In this document: positions 7,431 through 52,387 of the stretch, in pieces
Layout of the letters: every line of letters starts with the position of its first letter
How positions within the stretch are numbered: position 1 is the stretch's first letter
DNA from: Syntrophomonas sp.
GTDB lineage: Bacteria; Bacillota; Syntrophomonadia; Syntrophomonadales; Syntrophomonadaceae
Direction of reading: 5' to 3'
DNA length: 64,000 bases
NCBI GenBank assembly: GCA_016841425.1
Contig: JAENZE010000004.1
Coordinates: forward strand, 165,740-229,739
Notes under the pieces: model-generated
What the model was told of the DNA's origin: nothing
Databases searched by the model: none
What the model saw: only the letters and a program-made list of their open reading frames with translations
Position numbers and translations under genes: made by a program

Positions 7431-8200
7431 TTAACGTGATATAGGATAGTTATATATAAGTAATTCACGATATGTATTATCACTTTTATACCGTGTTAAC
7501 AAGTTATGTTGACGAACGACTTCTTTTATCTGATAGTCTTTATACAAGTCCCTTATATATTCAGAATCGTTATATGATAACAGAAATCGGCCTTTGATGG
7601 CCTGAATACATCTGAATAGACGCCGGTGGTCCTCCTCACTGAACTCAACCTGGTAGTATTTCTCTGACCCGTAGTATGGCGGGTCAAGATAGAAGAAAGT
7701 ACCTGGGCGATCATAGACATTTATAAGGTTTTCAAAATCCTTGTTTTCAATAATGACCGACGATAGTCGAGTTTGTACACGACTCAGGTATTCATACATA
7801 CTTAGAACATCTTTCTTAATACCTCCATAGCTGCGGCCATTTGAGCCATATGATATCTTTAACAACAGGTAGAAGCGCGCAGCTTTTTGAATATCAGTGA
7901 GCCCTCTAGTTTGTATTTGAGATTTATAGTCTTCAAATGTTTCCCGAGAATTCATCACCCATTCGAGTTCGCGCTGAAGCTCGGAACCATGATATTTTAC
8001 ACACCGGAATAAGTTGTGGAGATCACTATTATAATCATTGTATACTTCAATTGCTGCGTTGCGTACTTATCCCGGTAAAACATAACCCAGGCGGCCCCAC
8101 CAAAAACCTCAACATAGCGATCCAGGCCGTCAGGAATCATTTCAGCAATAGTTTTCTTGAGGTAATTCTTGCCTCCGATCCAACTAATAAAACTATTCAT
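7431..8200 (-). pseudogene. DNA adenine methyltransferase (Dam, D12 class), frameshifted
   Basis: The 5' frame (8200 down to about 8050) gives FISWIGGKNYLKKTIAEMI and RYVEVFGGAAWVMFYRDKYA, the SAM-binding motif of D12 N6-adenine methylases. A different frame continues from about 8060 with EVYNDYNSDLHNLFRCV through to 7431, carrying the catalytic DPPY (LDPPYYGSEKYY). The two overlap in a one-base (-1) offset near 8050-8065. No canonical slippery heptamer is present there, so this looks like a one-base deletion (or a sequencing error) rather than recoding. If functional it would methylate GATC-like sites and protect phage DNA. Confidence 0.82.
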
Positions 8201-14481: not shown

Positions 14482-16674
14482 CTATGGAATACTAAATCCC
14501 AGATCCAGGCGCGGGTCTCGGGATTGAGTATACTTGTCCAGCAAAGGACTGCTCAGTTTCTGGCTTACCTCTTTGGCTGCTTCCTTGGGATCGGTTGATT
14601 GTATGTTGATATTATACTGCCGGTTATCATTGCCACCCTTTATATCTACGGGTTTGGGTTTGGGTTTGCTAGATTCAGCGGCATTCTGAGCACTTTCTAT
14701 CCACGCTTTAGCATTGTCTATTGCTTCAATTTCCAGCGGGTCCATACCCAGGAATTCACGTGCCTTGTTCACGAGCTCCAGCATGCCTTCTGCTTTTTCT
14801 ATTATGGATGCGAATACTCCTAACACTAATTCTCCTATACGATTAAAGAGCTCTAACATAAAATCCCTAAAACCCATAAAATTAGTTTTCCATGCGACTA
14901 TGCCAGCTGCAATCAAGGCTGTTACTCCAAGGATGATCCAGCCTATCGGACCCAGTCCAATCAACCAGGCTACTGCCATTCTGGCCCCCATAGCTAATGC
15001 CTGTCCACCTAGTCGGACTAATCCGCCCCCAAAGCGGCCTACAATACTCAGTACGCGTGTCAGAATAGGTCGGCCAAAAGCAACCGCCTGCCATAAGGAT
15101 CTGAATATCCCGGAACCGTTTCGGAAATACTTGAATGCATCATAAAACCCGTGTGCGCTGCGTGCGGCATAGGTCAATACTTTGCTTGCCTTCGTTAATG
15201 CTATTCCTAAATCACCAAATAAGAATTTTCCTCCACCTATAATGATTTTCCCTATCGCAAAAGCACCAAATAATTTAATCATTCCGGTTACCAGTTTAGG
15301 GTGTTCATTAGCAAAATCTCCTACTGCGTTTACAAAATCAATTGTTTGTTGTACCATAACGCCTACTTCATTAGTAAGAGGAGTCCCGCTTTGGGTCATA
15401 ATGGTCTCCCAGCTTCCTTTCAGGGTCTCCACTTTGCCCAGCAGAGTTTCCTGCCAGGACAGCACCTGGTTCTGTATACTTTGGGCTCGTTCCGCCTGGG
15501 TCACCATTTGTTCATAGCTGCCTTTGCCTGGTGTGGCTAAAGCAATGGCAGCCCGCATGCCTTGAACCCCAAAAACATCCTTGAATTGCTGCATGGCAAT
15601 AAGTTTGTTTTTTGCCCCCAGCAATTCTTCTATCTCTTCCTGGGGCAGCAGATTTCCATATTTGTCCCGCATATCTTCAGGCTTTATACCTGAATTAGTG
15701 TACAGCACTTCCCTGAGTTTCTGTACCAGCATTTCCGCGCTGCGGATCTGCCCCTGCTCATCAAAGAGACTGTTAGTTCCACCGCTGACGCTGATCTTGC
15801 CGGAAGATAAAGTCTTCACTGTGGCTCCTTCCAGCCAGCCCATGTTCTGTAATGCCGTCCTGGCTTTAGGTGTGATCTTATCTAGATTAATCAGCATATT
15901 ATTCAGGTAGGTTCCGGAAGAATCACCCAGGCCCAGGTTATGCAGCGTGCCCAGCAGCAAAGTAGTTTCGCCCACTTCCAAACCCAGGGTTTTGGCTGTC
16001 ATTCCAGTCTGCTGCAGGTCATTCATTATATCTCCCACACCTGCGCTGGAAGCATTGGCCGCCCTGTTTATGTCATCCGCCACTTGCAGCAGCTCGCTCC
16101 CCTGCAATTGAAACATATTGGTGATCTGTGATACTGCGTCACCTGCTGCCGTTGGTGCTATCTCCGCTGTCTGGGCCAGGTACAGAGCCGCCTGGGCTCC
16201 TCCATCCAGCACATCCTGGTAGGCCATGCCGTTTTTAATGAGAGCTAACTGGGCCTGGGCAGCCTCCATATTATTAAAAGTAGTTATTGCACCTAGCTCC
16301 AAGGCCTGGTCTGTTAGGCCTTGCATCCGTTCCTGTTGCTCAACCAGAGGAATATTGGCATCATACAGGGCGTTCTCGACCTTTGTCATTACTCCCTCGA
16401 AGTTAGCAGCCTGTCTGAGCATTTCTTCCACCGGAACCAGCATTGCCATTCCGCCCTGTATACTTTGCAGCCCACTGGTCTTTAGTTTGCTGAAATTATT
16501 CATACTGGTTTCCAGGTTTTTGATCTTCTGATCGTAGCGGTTGACTTCGTCTCCGGCCTTGGATATCTGGGAGGCAAATGTCTGCACATTTCTTCCAGCA
16601 TTATTAAGTGCTGATGGCATGTTGTTGACCGCTGTTAAGACCAGGGCTACGGTCATGCTTGTGCTGGATGACAT
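14482..16674 (-). CDS. Tail tape measure protein
   Basis: A 730-residue protein, the longest of the prophage. The N-terminal 450 residues are helical and match the TP901-type tape-measure core, with MEAAQAQLALIKNGM, GDAVSQITNMFQLQGSEL and SAGVGDIMNDLQQTGMTAKT. Residues about 460-600 hold several hydrophobic helices (for example LIGLGPIGWIILGVTALIAA), expected of a protein that leaves the tail tube and enters the membrane. It sets tail length; the length suggests a tail of roughly 110 nm by the usual proportion of 0.15 nm per residue, an inference only. Confidence 0.93.
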   Translation of the reverse strand: MSSSTSMTVALVLTAVNNMPSALNNAGRNVQTFASQISKAGDEVNRYDQKIKNLETSMNNFSKLKTSGLQSIQGGMAMLVPVEEMLRQAANFEGVMTKVENALYDANIPLVEQQERMQGLTDQALELGAITTFNNMEAAQAQLALIKNGMAYQDVLDGGAQAALYLAQTAEIAPTAAGDAVSQITNMFQLQGSELLQVADDINRAANASSAGVGDIMNDLQQTGMTAKTLGLEVGETTLLLGTLHNLGLGDSSGTYLNNMLINLDKITPKARTALQNMGWLEGATVKTLSSGKISVSGGTNSLFDEQGQIRSAEMLVQKLREVLYTNSGIKPEDMRDKYGNLLPQEEIEELLGAKNKLIAMQQFKDVFGVQGMRAAIALATPGKGSYEQMVTQAERAQSIQNQVLSWQETLLGKVETLKGSWETIMTQSGTPLTNEVGVMVQQTIDFVNAVGDFANEHPKLVTGMIKLFGAFAIGKIIIGGGKFLFGDLGIALTKASKVLTYAARSAHGFYDAFKYFRNGSGIFRSLWQAVAFGRPILTRVLSIVGRFGGGLVRLGGQALAMGARMAVAWLIGLGPIGWIILGVTALIAAGIVAWKTNFMGFRDFMLELFNRIGELVLGVFASIIEKAEGMLELVNKAREFLGMDPLEIEAIDNAKAWIESAQNAAESSKPKPKPVDIKGGNDNRQYNINIQSTDPKEAAKEVSQKLSSPLLDKYTQSRDPRLDLGFSIP

Positions 16675-16955: not shown

Positions 16956-17446
16956 CTAATCCCCTGGGGTTTCCATTTCTTCTGCCAGCCATTCAAAGCT
17001 GATCCACACTGCTTCTTTTTCCAGGTCCGTCATGGACAGCCATTCCTGGTATCCTACATTACAATTCCTTGCTAATTGGACCCACCTGTAGAGGTCCGTC
17101 CTTTCAGCAAAAAAGCTGCAGCATCCTTAGCCTTATTCCGGGATTCTTCATCCATTCCAAACATTTCATCAAAGACCGACCGGAAGAATAAAATGTCTTT
17201 CTGGGTCCAGGTATCGAACAGCTTTTTGTAATCGCCATCCGTTGCTTTGCCATCCACTTCTGTAATGCACTTAGCAGCCAGATAATCATCCACCATCATG
17301 GCATCCGATAATGCCCGGTCTGCGCTTATCTGCGTCATCTGCAGCACGTTGTTGCGGTCAGCTCCTACAGGAGCCCTGAATGTAATCTTTGTGCCGCTGG
17401 GGAGTTCCAAAGGTCCATATACTACCGCATTACTCATATCAATCAA
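16956..17446 (-). CDS. Tail assembly chaperone with -1 programmed frameshift
   Basis: The unshifted product ends at 17072 (124 residues). At codons 112-113 (TTT TTG) the heptamer T TTT TTG is in the exact register for -1 slippage. After the slip the frame stays open for 50 more codons and ends with TAG at 16956-16958, giving a 163-residue long form. The extension (AERTDLYRWVQLARN, then MTDLEKEAVWISFEWL) looks like real protein and fills the gap before the tape measure gene. Paired short and long chaperones that bind the tape measure are known from lambda gpG/gpGT and many other tailed phages; the position matches Mu gp41. Confidence 0.88.
17108..17114 (-). promoter_or_regulatory. Slippery heptamer TTTTTTG for -1 frameshift
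   Basis: On the minus strand the reading is GCT TTT TTG CTG, so the heptamer T TTT TTG is in X-XXY-YYZ register. It joins the short tail chaperone to its 50-codon extension. Confidence 0.85.
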
Positions 17447-17460
17447 TACCTCCTAATAAA

Positions 17461-17898
17461 TTAAGCTTCCACCAAACCTTCAGCCTTGAAGGTCAGGTCT
17501 TTCTTTACTACACCTTTGCCTGCTGAAACGGATATCGATATCTCCGGGATCACTACCTGCTCAAACTTATAGCGCCCACTTAGTCCCTTGGCTGCATTCT
17601 TTATAGTGGTAATCACTACAAATCTCGGACTCTCAGGAGGCTCTTCGCCACGACGCAGAGTACTGGTTCCAAAAACTGACTCTACCACATCCATAGAGAC
17701 CCAGCCGCGTTTCAATTTACCTTCAATACTGATTTCGCCATCCAGTATCTGAGCAATTCTTTCGCCTAATTCCAGGTAGTTTTCAGTGTCATTCTTGACC
17801 GAAAACTCTACTTCCTGATACTCCCCGGCCAGACTGGGACCGGTTGCACCCATCACCAGGACACTTACGTCAAAACCCTGAACTGGTTTTTTACTCAT
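17461..17898 (-). CDS. Tail tube protein (Mu gpM-like)
   Basis: A 145-residue protein placed between sheath and chaperone, where the tube protein belongs. The middle contains YQEVEFSVKNDTENYLELGER and QILDGEISIEGKLKRGW, typical of tube subunits of Firmicute myophages. Six tube subunits form each ring of the inner tail. Its ATG overlaps the end of the ferredoxin gene by eight bases, so the two are probably translated together. Confidence 0.83.
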   Translation of the reverse strand: MSKKPVQGFDVSVLVMGATGPSLAGEYQEVEFSVKNDTENYLELGERIAQILDGEISIEGKLKRGWVSMDVVESVFGTSTLRRGEEPPESPRFVVITTIKNAAKGLSGRYKFEQVVIPEISISVSAGKGVVKKDLTFKAEGLVEA

Positions 17899-18139
17899 CC
17901 AGTTCGCCTCCTTCCTTATCCTCTTCCTGCGGTACCTCGCTTACATAGTTATTGACAGAAGTTGTTTGTGTCTTAGGAGTCTGATATATAAGGCCGATAG
18001 GGCAGGCAGATACACAAACACCACAATCTATGCATTTATCAGTAATAGTCACTCCCAACCCATTAGGGGTTATAGCATCTACCGGGCATACGGCCAGGCA
18101 GTTACCGCAGCCTGGGCAGCCATCCTTAACTTGATACAT
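17891..18139 (-). CDS. Two-cluster [4Fe-4S] ferredoxin-like protein inside the tail operon
   Basis: An 82-residue protein with two perfect CxxCxxCxxxCP motifs: Cys 8, 11, 14, 18 and Cys 36, 39, 42, 46. Spacing is that of bacterial 2[4Fe-4S] ferredoxins. A C-terminal 30-residue tail (SEVPQEEDKEGGELDE) is acidic and extra to the family. GAGGTG precedes the ATG. It lies 12 bases after the tail sheath gene and overlaps the tube gene by eight bases, so it is an integral part of the tail operon. It could be a structural tail part or an electron carrier; no electron-transfer partner is encoded in the prophage. Confidence 0.9.
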   Translation of the reverse strand: MYQVKDGCPGCGNCLAVCPVDAITPNGLGVTITDKCIDCGVCVSACPIGLIYQTPKTQTTSVNNYVSEVPQEEDKEGGELDE

Positions 18140-18151
18140 TATTTCACCTCG

Positions 18152-19555
18152 CTATTCATCGCCGGTAAGCCGTGTAACCTGTTGGTCAATATAATCCGCA
18201 GCATATGTTGGACGTACTCGATAATTCACATTTAGCTTGCGGGCTTCAATAGTCTCAGCGGTATTATTGGTATCATCACAGATAGTTGGTTTAAAATCAT
18301 ATATTTCACCCTCAGTCTTAGCAGCTGCCAGGTAGTTGTCTATCTGTGCCGCCAGGGACGCGCGCAGACTTGCAGTATTATTCTCAGAGACAGCCCATTG
18401 GGTAGCGTTATAGATTTCCATTTCCAGCTTATCGAACTGGCGGCGGATATTAGTCTGGGACCAGGCTGAATCCGTTGATAAAGTAACTCCATTGCGAACC
18501 CTGAAGCCCCGGCCATATATTAAAGAAATAGGGCTGATCCTGGCCTGAGTCAGTGCCTTGATCTCTGATGCAGCTAAAAACCTTTCCATTTGGTTTACGC
18601 CTAATAACTGCTTATTAGAAGGACTCTGATTAGCAGCCAATACTGATAAGAGCCCGGCATAAACTCCATCCGGCGCCACAAATTGTCCAGCCTGCTCGGT
18701 TAATTCCAGCCACGGGTATGCCAGTATTCCACGCTCACTATCAATATCAGCAGTTTCCAGCACTGCGGCGGTAGGTGTGACGCCAGAGGCCGTGTTTAAT
18801 ACAGCCATCCTGGCCCCGTATTCTATTTCCGTATTAGCGCAATGGGTCAAGAGTGCATTCCGTATTGTGGTGCTGTACTGCTGCGCACAGATCACGAGGG
18901 CGCAGGAAACAGTATCAAGTACTTTCAGACCGGAACGGTTGCCGCTCCCGTCAATGGTACCAACATAATCGGCATCTTCAGTCACAGCTCCATCATCTCC
19001 ATCAGCGAGCGGAGTAGAGGATAAATTAGCGGGTATATCTGATGCACCATCAGCTGCCGCTGCCGTTACAAAAAACGATGCAATATCACCCACATTAGCA
19101 AGAGTTAAATTATCAAAGGTTTCTTGCTGGCTGCCACAGGTGATCACCAGCTTAAAAGTACTTTCCAGGGTACCATCTGCTACAGCAGCATATATTTCGT
19201 TACCCCAGGTACCCGGAGTTGCAGCAGTTAGAACTACAGAATTGCCACTTTCTGAATCCAGCAATGTAATGGCTGCGCTATCTAAGGACGCGCCTCCGAC
19301 ACGCACCACATAAAAATCATTGGCTCCTTGAGCCATGGCCCCAAGTATGGATAAATAACCAGTCAAACCACTTGTATAGCCCCCGAAAATACTTACTAAC
19401 TGAGATAGGGAGCTTATTAGCTGCGGTGAATTCACCGGGCCTTTTGAGAACGTTCCTACTACTCCAATTCGAGCCAGGCTTACGGCTGGTATAACTCTGG
19501 TTCCCACATCGCTTTCATCTATCGAAACTCGGGGGGCAATATACTCCAATGTCAT
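18152..19555 (-). CDS. Tail sheath protein (Mu gpL-like)
   Basis: A 467-residue contractile sheath subunit. Family features include the N-terminal TLEYIAPRVSIDESDVGTR handshake arm, GVVGTFSKGPVN, and near the C-terminus YGRGFRVRNGVTLSTD and IRRQFDKLEMEIYNATQWAV. It shows that the phage is a myovirus. It begins the tail gene set and is followed by the ferredoxin instead of directly by the tube. Confidence 0.93.
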   Translation of the reverse strand: MTLEYIAPRVSIDESDVGTRVIPAVSLARIGVVGTFSKGPVNSPQLISSLSQLVSIFGGYTSGLTGYLSILGAMAQGANDFYVVRVGGASLDSAAITLLDSESGNSVVLTAATPGTWGNEIYAAVADGTLESTFKLVITCGSQQETFDNLTLANVGDIASFFVTAAAADGASDIPANLSSTPLADGDDGAVTEDADYVGTIDGSGNRSGLKVLDTVSCALVICAQQYSTTIRNALLTHCANTEIEYGARMAVLNTASGVTPTAAVLETADIDSERGILAYPWLELTEQAGQFVAPDGVYAGLLSVLAANQSPSNKQLLGVNQMERFLAASEIKALTQARISPISLIYGRGFRVRNGVTLSTDSAWSQTNIRRQFDKLEMEIYNATQWAVSENNTASLRASLAAQIDNYLAAAKTEGEIYDFKPTICDDTNNTAETIEARKLNVNYRVRPTYAADYIDQQVTRLTGDE

Positions 19556-49548: not shown

Positions 49549-49702
49549 TTAACACTCCCATCATGTCTTATAAATAGTAATATTTACTGTGCTTTTAGCT
49601 GGAATACATCTAAAAATCCCCGCCAAATTATGTTATTATTCTAGTAGATATTGTCGAATTAAGGTACAAGAAAGATAAATATTATCTGATTTGAGGTATT
49701 TT

Positions 49703-52387
49703 ATGGATAATTTAATTGAAGTAATCGGAATTAGAGAAGAATACTGTACTAATTGTCATCAGTGCATAGCCGTATGTCCGGTAAAAGTCTGCAGTGACGG
49801 AAGCGGGGCTGTCGTAAAATTCAATAACGATTTATGTATCGGCTGCGGGCGATGCATCGAAGCCTGTATAAAGAGTCACGGTGGCATAATTGAAAAAAGC
49901 GCGCGATTTGCTATCGATGATGCTCTATCGTTTGCAGCTGATTTGCCTGGACATAATATTATAGCCCTCATAGCTCCATCAGCTCAGGGTAATTTTGATC
50001 TGCAGAAGTTAATTACCGCTTTAAAACTCCTGGGTGTTAAGGAGGTATATGATGTATCGTTGGGCGCGGAAATAGCTATAACCTGCTATCATGATGCCAT
50101 AAAACATGGGAATATAAAAACGCCGGTAATAGCACAGCCCTGCCCGGCAGTGGTCAAGTATATAGAACTTCATCATCCCAATTTAATAGAATACCTGGCA
50201 CCAATAGGCAGTCCGGTTCACAATCTGGCCGTTTATGTGAAATCACTGCATCCTAATGCTGAACTAGCGTTTATATCTCCCTGTCTGGCTAAACGAAGGG
50301 AATTTCAGGACAGCGGGCTAATCAAATACAATGTTATCTACCAGTCGATCCAAAAAATCCTGCAGGATAATAATATAAATTTGGATTCTCTGGAAAATGG
50401 GGAATTTGATAATATGGTACCGGCTGGAATAGCTACCAAGTTCTCTGCCCCCGGCGGCTTGAAGGAATCGTACCTGTACCACTATCCCGATACGCCTGCC
50501 AGCAGTATCGCCAAAATAGGAGGATCGGGTATTTATGAAGATTACCTGGCTGATTTAGAAAACTCTATAAAAAATGGCAGTTCGCACCTGCCTCTGATAG
50601 TAGACATTCTTAGCTGTGAAAACGGATGCAATATCGGACCTGGTTGCATCAATAAATCACTGGCTAAAGTTGAATACTCAGTGACCAGACGTTCAGAAAT
50701 AGAAACGAGGAATCAAGAAACTAACCAGCAATTGATAGATTTTTTAAGTGATATTACTAAAAAACTGGATTTCGGGTATCATCACTATCGAGATAAATCA
50801 CAGCAGAACCAGCTAAGAATGCCAACTGAAAATGAATTGCAGAAGATATATTTCGAGATGCATAAGCTGGAAGATAAAGACTTTAGGAATTGCGCCGCAT
50901 GTGGTTATAATTCCTGTTATCAAATGGCATTAGCAGTTTTTAACGGCTTAAACAAGGCTCAAAACTGTCACCTTTATCAGGAAAAGGAACTGCGCATAGA
51001 GCAGCAGGCTTTGAGAAGTTTGCATTATGAATTGAGCAATGTTTTTGATACTATGTCTGATGGGGTAATTGTGCTTGATAACCAGGGAATCGTATCGCAA
51101 TATAACCCTGCTGCCCTGAATATCACTGGTTATTCAGACGAAGCACTTATTGGTATCCATGTGGTTGATCTTTTCAGTGGGAAAGCGCCCTATACTCTTA
51201 AACTTCTACAAACCGGACAACCCTTTTACGATAAGGAAATCCTGCTGGATGGTAAACACCGGCAGATTCATGCTACGGCCTCAGGAAAACCTATATTTGA
51301 TGAATTTAACCGCGTCAATGGTGTTACTATAATCCTGAGACCAATCGCACAGGTGCATCAGTTGGTAAATACTCTAACCGGGGCACAGGCCAGTTTTACA
51401 TTTGACAGTATAATTGGAGAAGACAAACAACTAAAAAAATCAATTAAGCTCGGCATGATGGCAGGCACCAATGACTCCAATGTACTGCTTCAGGCTGAAA
51501 GCGGCACAGGAAAAGAAGTATTTGCCCAGGCTATTCATAATCACAGCTTACGCAAGAATGGACCTTTCGTAGCTCTTAACTGTGCAGCACTGCCTAGAGA
51601 GCTTATTAGCAGTGAGTTATTTGGCTATGCGGAAGGAGCTTTCACAGGTGCCCGACGCGGGGGAAGACCAGGTAAATTTGAATTCGCCAACGGAGGGACG
51701 CTCTTACTGGATGAGATAGGTGATATGCCGCTGGAACAGCAGGCAACTCTCCTGCGCGCTATCCAAGAGAAGGCAATACTAAGGGTGGGCAGCAATACCC
51801 TGATAAAAGTTGATGTCAGAATAATTGCAGCCACCAATCAGGACCTTCTGGCACTGGTTGAGCAGGGAAGGTTTAGAGCTGATCTATACTACCGGCTCAA
51901 CGTAATAAATATTTTTATCGCTCCACTACGTGAAAGACGTAAAGATATTGAACTGCTGTTTCAACATTTTTTGAAACAGATGGCTCCTAAATTTAACCGT
52001 GATATTACCAGAATTGATCCCTCGGTAATAAAATGCCTGGAAAACTATGATTGGCCGGGCAATGTTCGTGAACTGCAAAACGTAGTTGAGAGAATACTAT
52101 TGGTTACTGAAGATGATCAGGTGACTATAGAACATCTTCCCCGGGAAATTGCCAGTGCAGCTGTAGGCTATTCGGCAAAAATCGGTGAAAATTCAACTGA
52201 GATTAATAATTCTCCGATGCTTTCCAACCGAAATGCAAGGAAACTATATGCTCTGGAGCAGGAGAAACAACGTATAATAAGGGCACTAAACATGCATGGT
52301 GGCAATGTGACCCGGGCTTCAATTGAATTGGATATGTCCCGTAATACCTTGTATAGGAAAATGAAGACCCTTAATATTCACAATTAG
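49703..52387 (+). CDS. Sigma-54 activator with hydrogenase-like Fe-S sensor domains
   Basis: About 894 residues (ATG at 49703 behind GAGGT). Order: two [4Fe-4S] motifs (CTNCHQCIAVCP and CIGCGRCIEAC, about 15-55); an [FeFe]-hydrogenase large-subunit-like domain (about 70-330) with AQPCPAVVK, ISPCLAKRREF and LSCENGCNIGPGC in place of the H-cluster loops; a four-Cys Fe-S motif (CAACGYNSC and AQNC, about 397-422); a PAS domain (about 440-545); a sigma-54 AAA+ domain with ESGTGKE and GAFTGA (about 570-800); and a Fis HTH at the end. It should activate sigma-54 promoters in response to redox or hydrogen, most likely those at 52555 and 60112. Confidence 0.93.
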   Translation: MDNLIEVIGIREEYCTNCHQCIAVCPVKVCSDGSGAVVKFNNDLCIGCGRCIEACIKSHGGIIEKSARFAIDDALSFAADLPGHNIIALIAPSAQGNFDLQKLITALKLLGVKEVYDVSLGAEIAITCYHDAIKHGNIKTPVIAQPCPAVVKYIELHHPNLIEYLAPIGSPVHNLAVYVKSLHPNAELAFISPCLAKRREFQDSGLIKYNVIYQSIQKILQDNNINLDSLENGEFDNMVPAGIATKFSAPGGLKESYLYHYPDTPASSIAKIGGSGIYEDYLADLENSIKNGSSHLPLIVDILSCENGCNIGPGCINKSLAKVEYSVTRRSEIETRNQETNQQLIDFLSDITKKLDFGYHHYRDKSQQNQLRMPTENELQKIYFEMHKLEDKDFRNCAACGYNSCYQMALAVFNGLNKAQNCHLYQEKELRIEQQALRSLHYELSNVFDTMSDGVIVLDNQGIVSQYNPAALNITGYSDEALIGIHVVDLFSGKAPYTLKLLQTGQPFYDKEILLDGKHRQIHATASGKPIFDEFNRVNGVTIILRPIAQVHQLVNTLTGAQASFTFDSIIGEDKQLKKSIKLGMMAGTNDSNVLLQAESGTGKEVFAQAIHNHSLRKNGPFVALNCAALPRELISSELFGYAEGAFTGARRGGRPGKFEFANGGTLLLDEIGDMPLEQQATLLRAIQEKAILRVGSNTLIKVDVRIIAATNQDLLALVEQGRFRADLYYRLNVINIFIAPLRERRKDIELLFQHFLKQMAPKFNRDITRIDPSVIKCLENYDWPGNVRELQNVVERILLVTEDDQVTIEHLPREIASAAVGYSAKIGENSTEINNSPMLSNRNARKLYALEQEKQRIIRALNMHGGNVTRASIELDMSRNTLYRKMKTLNIHN

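Follow-up and report, generated by a model that had tools for sequence, protein, structure and literature searches.

What does a ferredoxin gene do between those for the sheath and the tube of a contractile phage tail? This question is raised by a prophage in the window, the 64,000-nucleotide stretch of Syntrophomonas sp. DNA analysed here. An 82-residue 2[4Fe-4S] ferredoxin, recognised by its ORF, Pfam matches and AlphaFold core, is encoded there at 17891-18139 (translation beginning MYQVKDGCPGCGNCLAVCPVDAITPNGLGVTITDKCIDCGVCVSACPIGLIYQ), between the gene of the tail sheath (18152-19555, 467 aa; PF17482 and phrog_23, the latter with an E value of 4e-52) and that of the tail tube (17461-17898, 145 aa), all on the minus strand. 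The preliminary description had pictured a stand-alone ferredoxin stitched into the tail operon, and both distances it gave are correct: a gap of 12 nt separates the sheath gene from the ferredoxin gene, which in turn overlaps the tube gene by 8 nt. The ribosome-binding site of the ferredoxin gene reads GAGGTGA (18144-18150, minus strand), and that of the tube gene, AGGAGG (17907-17912, minus strand), lies within the ferredoxin gene. Across the relatives, the start and stop of the ferredoxin gene are likewise tightly fitted to the sheath and tube genes, and the tube ribosome-binding site is found inside the ferredoxin gene or shortly behind it. Judging from this arrangement, the ferredoxin gene probably sits in one translation chain with sheath and tube. 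Its G+C content is 0.466, compared with 0.47-0.48 in the neighbouring genes.

The surrounding prophage is Mu-like, as it contains relatives of MuA, MuB and the Mu portal, gp27 and gp48 together with protein F, protease, capsid, sheath, tape measure, gp25 and baseplate J, and it shows no obvious damage. The assignment of the 17461-17898 product as the tail tube is backed by its position and by its predicted fold, the model of which (mean pLDDT 74, a moderate value) has the tube of the C. difficile R-type bacteriocin as its best PDB match (6gkx, E 6e-5). The tube gene is followed by that of a probable tail assembly chaperone (17072-17446, minus strand), a function suggested by its position, which is kept in this order in 24 of 28 loci, and by a gene for a 730-residue tape measure protein (14482-16674, minus strand; PF10145, phrog_28). 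Sheath, tube, chaperone and tape measure thus occur in the same order as in the tail module of Mu, but there the sheath is directly followed by the tube, whereas here an extra gene stands between them. A run of six T near the end of the chaperone gene makes a programmed frameshift possible, as in other tail chaperones, and downstream of this gene, in another frame, positions 16956-17070 encode EWLSMTDLEKEAVWISFEWLAEEMETPGD, which resembles the ORF at the same place in locus L027, MSLKEWLSFDDLTREAVCLAVEDLADEIKED.

All eight cysteines of two clusters had been claimed for the protein, and eight were found, in two full CxxCxxCxxxCP motifs. The translation matches the Pfam families Fer4 (E 2e-13) and Fer4_10 (E 7e-13), and AlphaFold predicts a core with a pLDDT of about 95 and disorder from residue 59 onwards. 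The core (residues 1-54; 17978-18139, minus strand) holds all the cluster cysteines; its best PDB match is the C. acidurici ferredoxin 1FCA (1.0 Å, TM 0.91 over the 55-aa target). By motifs and predicted fold, the window protein is a clostridial-type 2[4Fe-4S] ferredoxin, on which the clusters presumably assemble. Unlike 1FCA, with which they share both motifs, the phage copies are encoded in a tail operon, have a variable C-terminal stretch and in one clade carry CxxCxxCx5CP. This unusual spacing, with two extra residues in the first motif, was observed in L038, L039, L040, L063 and L144 and is kept across Desulfosporosinus and Alicyclobacillus phages. The eight cysteines are retained in all 21 aligned copies and in three further ones, even where the identity of the tube proteins is as low as 33-50%.

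The C-terminal tail of the window ferredoxin (residues 59-82; 17894-17965, minus strand, its end overlapping the tube start) is predicted to be disordered, and the C-terminus has a net charge of -6. The acidic C-terminus noted earlier is therefore present in this copy, but it is no family feature and was rejected as a functional one, because the C-terminal charge ranges from -8 to +11 among the relatives. The stretch after the last cysteine likewise varies among them, from 15 to 53 residues. A recurring C-terminal TG[VAS] was also discarded as a motif, since it is apparently the tube gene's conserved PVQG start, seen in another frame.

The iron-sulfur precedent in phage tails to which the preliminary description had pointed stands: the tail-tip protein gpL of lambda holds a [4Fe-4S] cluster in its C-terminal domain (Tam 2013; PMC10721106), with Cys173, 182, 205 and 212 as ligands, and the role of lambda-type tail-tip clusters is given as open (PMC10721106). 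An iron-sulfur cluster in a tail gene product is common to both cases, but gpL is a single-cluster tail-tip protein, whereas the protein considered here is a stand-alone dicluster ferredoxin encoded between contractile sheath and tube. It does not show the single C-terminal four-Cys cluster of gpL, and in Pfam it matched dicluster ferredoxins only, with no match to gpL. Literature searches of open-licence PMC papers revealed no description of a ferredoxin between sheath and tube, and the family seems to be undescribed.

A search of viral contigs with the single window ferredoxin sequence gave only one unrelated match, which was not beside tail genes. Relatives, many of them prophages or metagenomic contigs, were gathered with tube and sheath queries in IMG/VR and in one-genome-per-species sets. 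Pattern-based scans of the collections, from which the counts of distinct phages derive and which miss distant members, identified 24 distinct ferredoxins, the window copy included, in IMG/VR contigs and Bacillota genomes. The search of relatives' tail operons that had been proposed for this locus thus found the ferredoxin at the place between sheath and tube in all 24 cases, although the contig of L044 ends inside the ferredoxin gene and its tube is not seen. Neither a second nor a displaced copy was found in the loci checked, and no dicluster ORF lies near the 30 sheath loci of other kinds. Twenty-four copies at exactly one place are far beyond chance, so the window ferredoxin is not a stray host gene. 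Among the carriers' hosts, those with names are Pelotomaculum propionicicum, Desulfocucumis palustris, Desulfosporosinus acididurans, Desulfofundulus thermosubterraneus, a Lutispora MAG, Alicyclobacillus fastidiosus and Aneurinibacillus, and of the 16 genomes found with the same tube, 13 also have the ferredoxin (all 10 from outside the Bacilli searches and 3 of 6 from within them). The two Aneurinibacillus prophages (L058 and L059) are related, reside in one genome and both carry the gene; their sheaths diverge more than their ferredoxins or tubes.

The dN/dS values of 0.07, 0.085, 0.15 and 0.19 obtained for four close pairs point to purifying selection, saturation being too high for a useful value in distant pairs, and the ferredoxin gene is accordingly seen as a conserved, syntenic member of the tail module. 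Its distances correlate with those of the tube (Mantel 0.33, 0/2000 permutations) and weakly with those of the sheath (Mantel 0.19, 67/2000 permutations). Ferredoxin trees were built on about 55 columns. On this alignment the sheath topology lies 34 lnL units below the best tree, compared with at least 251 for 60 shuffled topologies, which argues that the descent of ferredoxin and sheath is largely shared; an exact match to the sheath tree was rejected, however (AU p 0.001), which leaves a share of recombination or noise. A single origin separate from the host ferredoxins was not rejected (AU p 0.354), which on only 55 columns makes it no more than tenable. A stable operon inherited vertically might by itself account for the conservation of place.

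Sharing this sheath and tube does not always mean having the ferredoxin. The gene is cleanly missing from about eight phages that have the same tail, including those of Sporomusa and Tumebacillus and an isolated Alicyclobacillus phage, MMB025, whose sheath is more distant, and no ferredoxin was found elsewhere in such phages within the stretches read (some kilobases each way). Presence and absence require three changes on the sheath tree, and the non-carrier L042, whose tube shares 90% identity with a carrier's, has clearly lost the gene within a carrier clade. Because of these clean absences, one of them nested among carriers, the gene is, as far as sequence comparison tells, long retained but dispensable, and the tail can manage without it. 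The ferredoxin is the one variable widespread gene family in an otherwise colinear tail module and alone clearly separates carriers from non-carriers. Acquisition along with a partner was rejected, as the distribution of the ferredoxin is not matched by that of any other widespread family in the module. Among the columns of sheath and tube, none follows its presence convincingly, and sheath disulfides were dismissed as its target, since non-carrier sheaths have no fewer cysteines. Aneurinibacillus and Alicyclobacillus fastidiosus are aerobes, and Sporomusa is a strict anaerobe. A switch by which the phage of an anaerobe would respond to oxygen or redox state, as suggested in the preliminary description, does not fit this host distribution, in which aerobes carry the ferredoxin and the Sporomusa phage lacks it.

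We give about an even chance to the reading that the protein is an accessory ferredoxin of the tail module, co-translated with sheath and tube and acting on or in the tail. It would belong to a single contractile-tail module, found in Bacillota phages that are Mu-like or related to these, and the message of this module would yield sheath, then ferredoxin, then tube in translation, presumably late in infection. The product would have the fold of a clostridial-type 2[4Fe-4S] ferredoxin, followed by a short flexible C-terminus, and would most likely work on or in the phage tail, its presumable site of action, whether as a small protein bound to the virion or as an assembly factor for sheath and tube. 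A tail-related role is favoured because the ferredoxin is placed in the sheath-tube translation chain, is the sole variable widespread family of the colinear module and is distant from host ferredoxins, and because no partner enzyme was recognised in the prophage and carriage is indifferent to the host's relation to oxygen. What counts against action at the tail is that the C-terminal stretch, a natural docking element, is unconserved; together with the clean losses and the lack of a tracking sheath or tube column, this also speaks against an integral structural role.

The main rival is an auxiliary metabolic role, in which the protein would serve host or phage enzymes as a low-potential electron carrier late in infection and would only be housed in the tail operon; we consider this unlikely, albeit worth serious consideration. 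The predicted structure is that of a canonical electron-transfer ferredoxin, repeated clean loss suits an accessory function, and a 4Fe-4S ferredoxin has been reported as a probable auxiliary metabolic gene in Nitrospirota viruses of Lake Baikal (PMC7678222). That phage-borne ferredoxin, however, is 86% identical to the host's (PMC7678222), whereas the best host ferredoxin of the own genome is 46% identical to the window copy over 46 residues, which is no close likeness to a host metabolic gene, and the tail-module ferredoxins are fixed in place. Moreover, the hosts already have 25-64 ferredoxin-profile matches per genome, carriers infect aerobes and anaerobes alike, and the gap between sheath and ferredoxin genes is too small for the latter to form a transcription unit of its own. 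Neither a redox partner enzyme nor a partner pathway was recognised when the main prophage proteins, several of which have no Pfam match, were scanned with Pfam.

We consider it improbable that the ferredoxin is built into the virion tail as a redox-active part, with clusters on sheath or tube serving as a switch or as stored electrons; the clusters would then act in tail assembly, contraction or DNA entry, and such a part, if real, would be a tail component of a new kind. Still a little more doubtful is a role in host takeover or counter-defence, coupled to the synthesis of the tube, in which the protein might for instance shield free tube subunits from tube-recognising defence sensors such as DSR2. 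Co-translation with the tube and a patchy loss as an arms-race gene would show are in line with this idea, and the structural matches of the tube model include DSR2-tube complexes, but the core is under strong purifying selection, unlike most anti-defence genes, and the conserved cluster ligands would be left without explanation. As for the recent capture of a host ferredoxin that has no function, the hosts are rich in ferredoxins, but 24 distinct same-site copies, purifying selection and neighbour-like composition leave this hardly any credence, and the test set beforehand, absence from relatives plus signs of a recent host-gene insertion, came out in favour of a conserved phage gene.

An accessory tail ferredoxin would represent a case of iron-sulfur clusters in tails independent of lambda-type tips, and as carriers and non-carriers with nearly the same tube protein exist, the role of such clusters becomes testable. 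In addition, the case warns against automatically taking a ferredoxin found in a viral contig for an auxiliary metabolic gene. Two further genes of the window were noted in passing. Near the prophage end, 7431-7958 encodes a D12-class DNA adenine methyltransferase whose match to the family covers the C-terminal half alone; the gene is probably truncated. An 898-residue host protein (49691-52387), adjoining beta-oxidation genes, has a 4Fe-4S region at its N-terminus and, by eye, an iron-hydrogenase-like domain, a PAS-like region and a sigma-54 activator domain.
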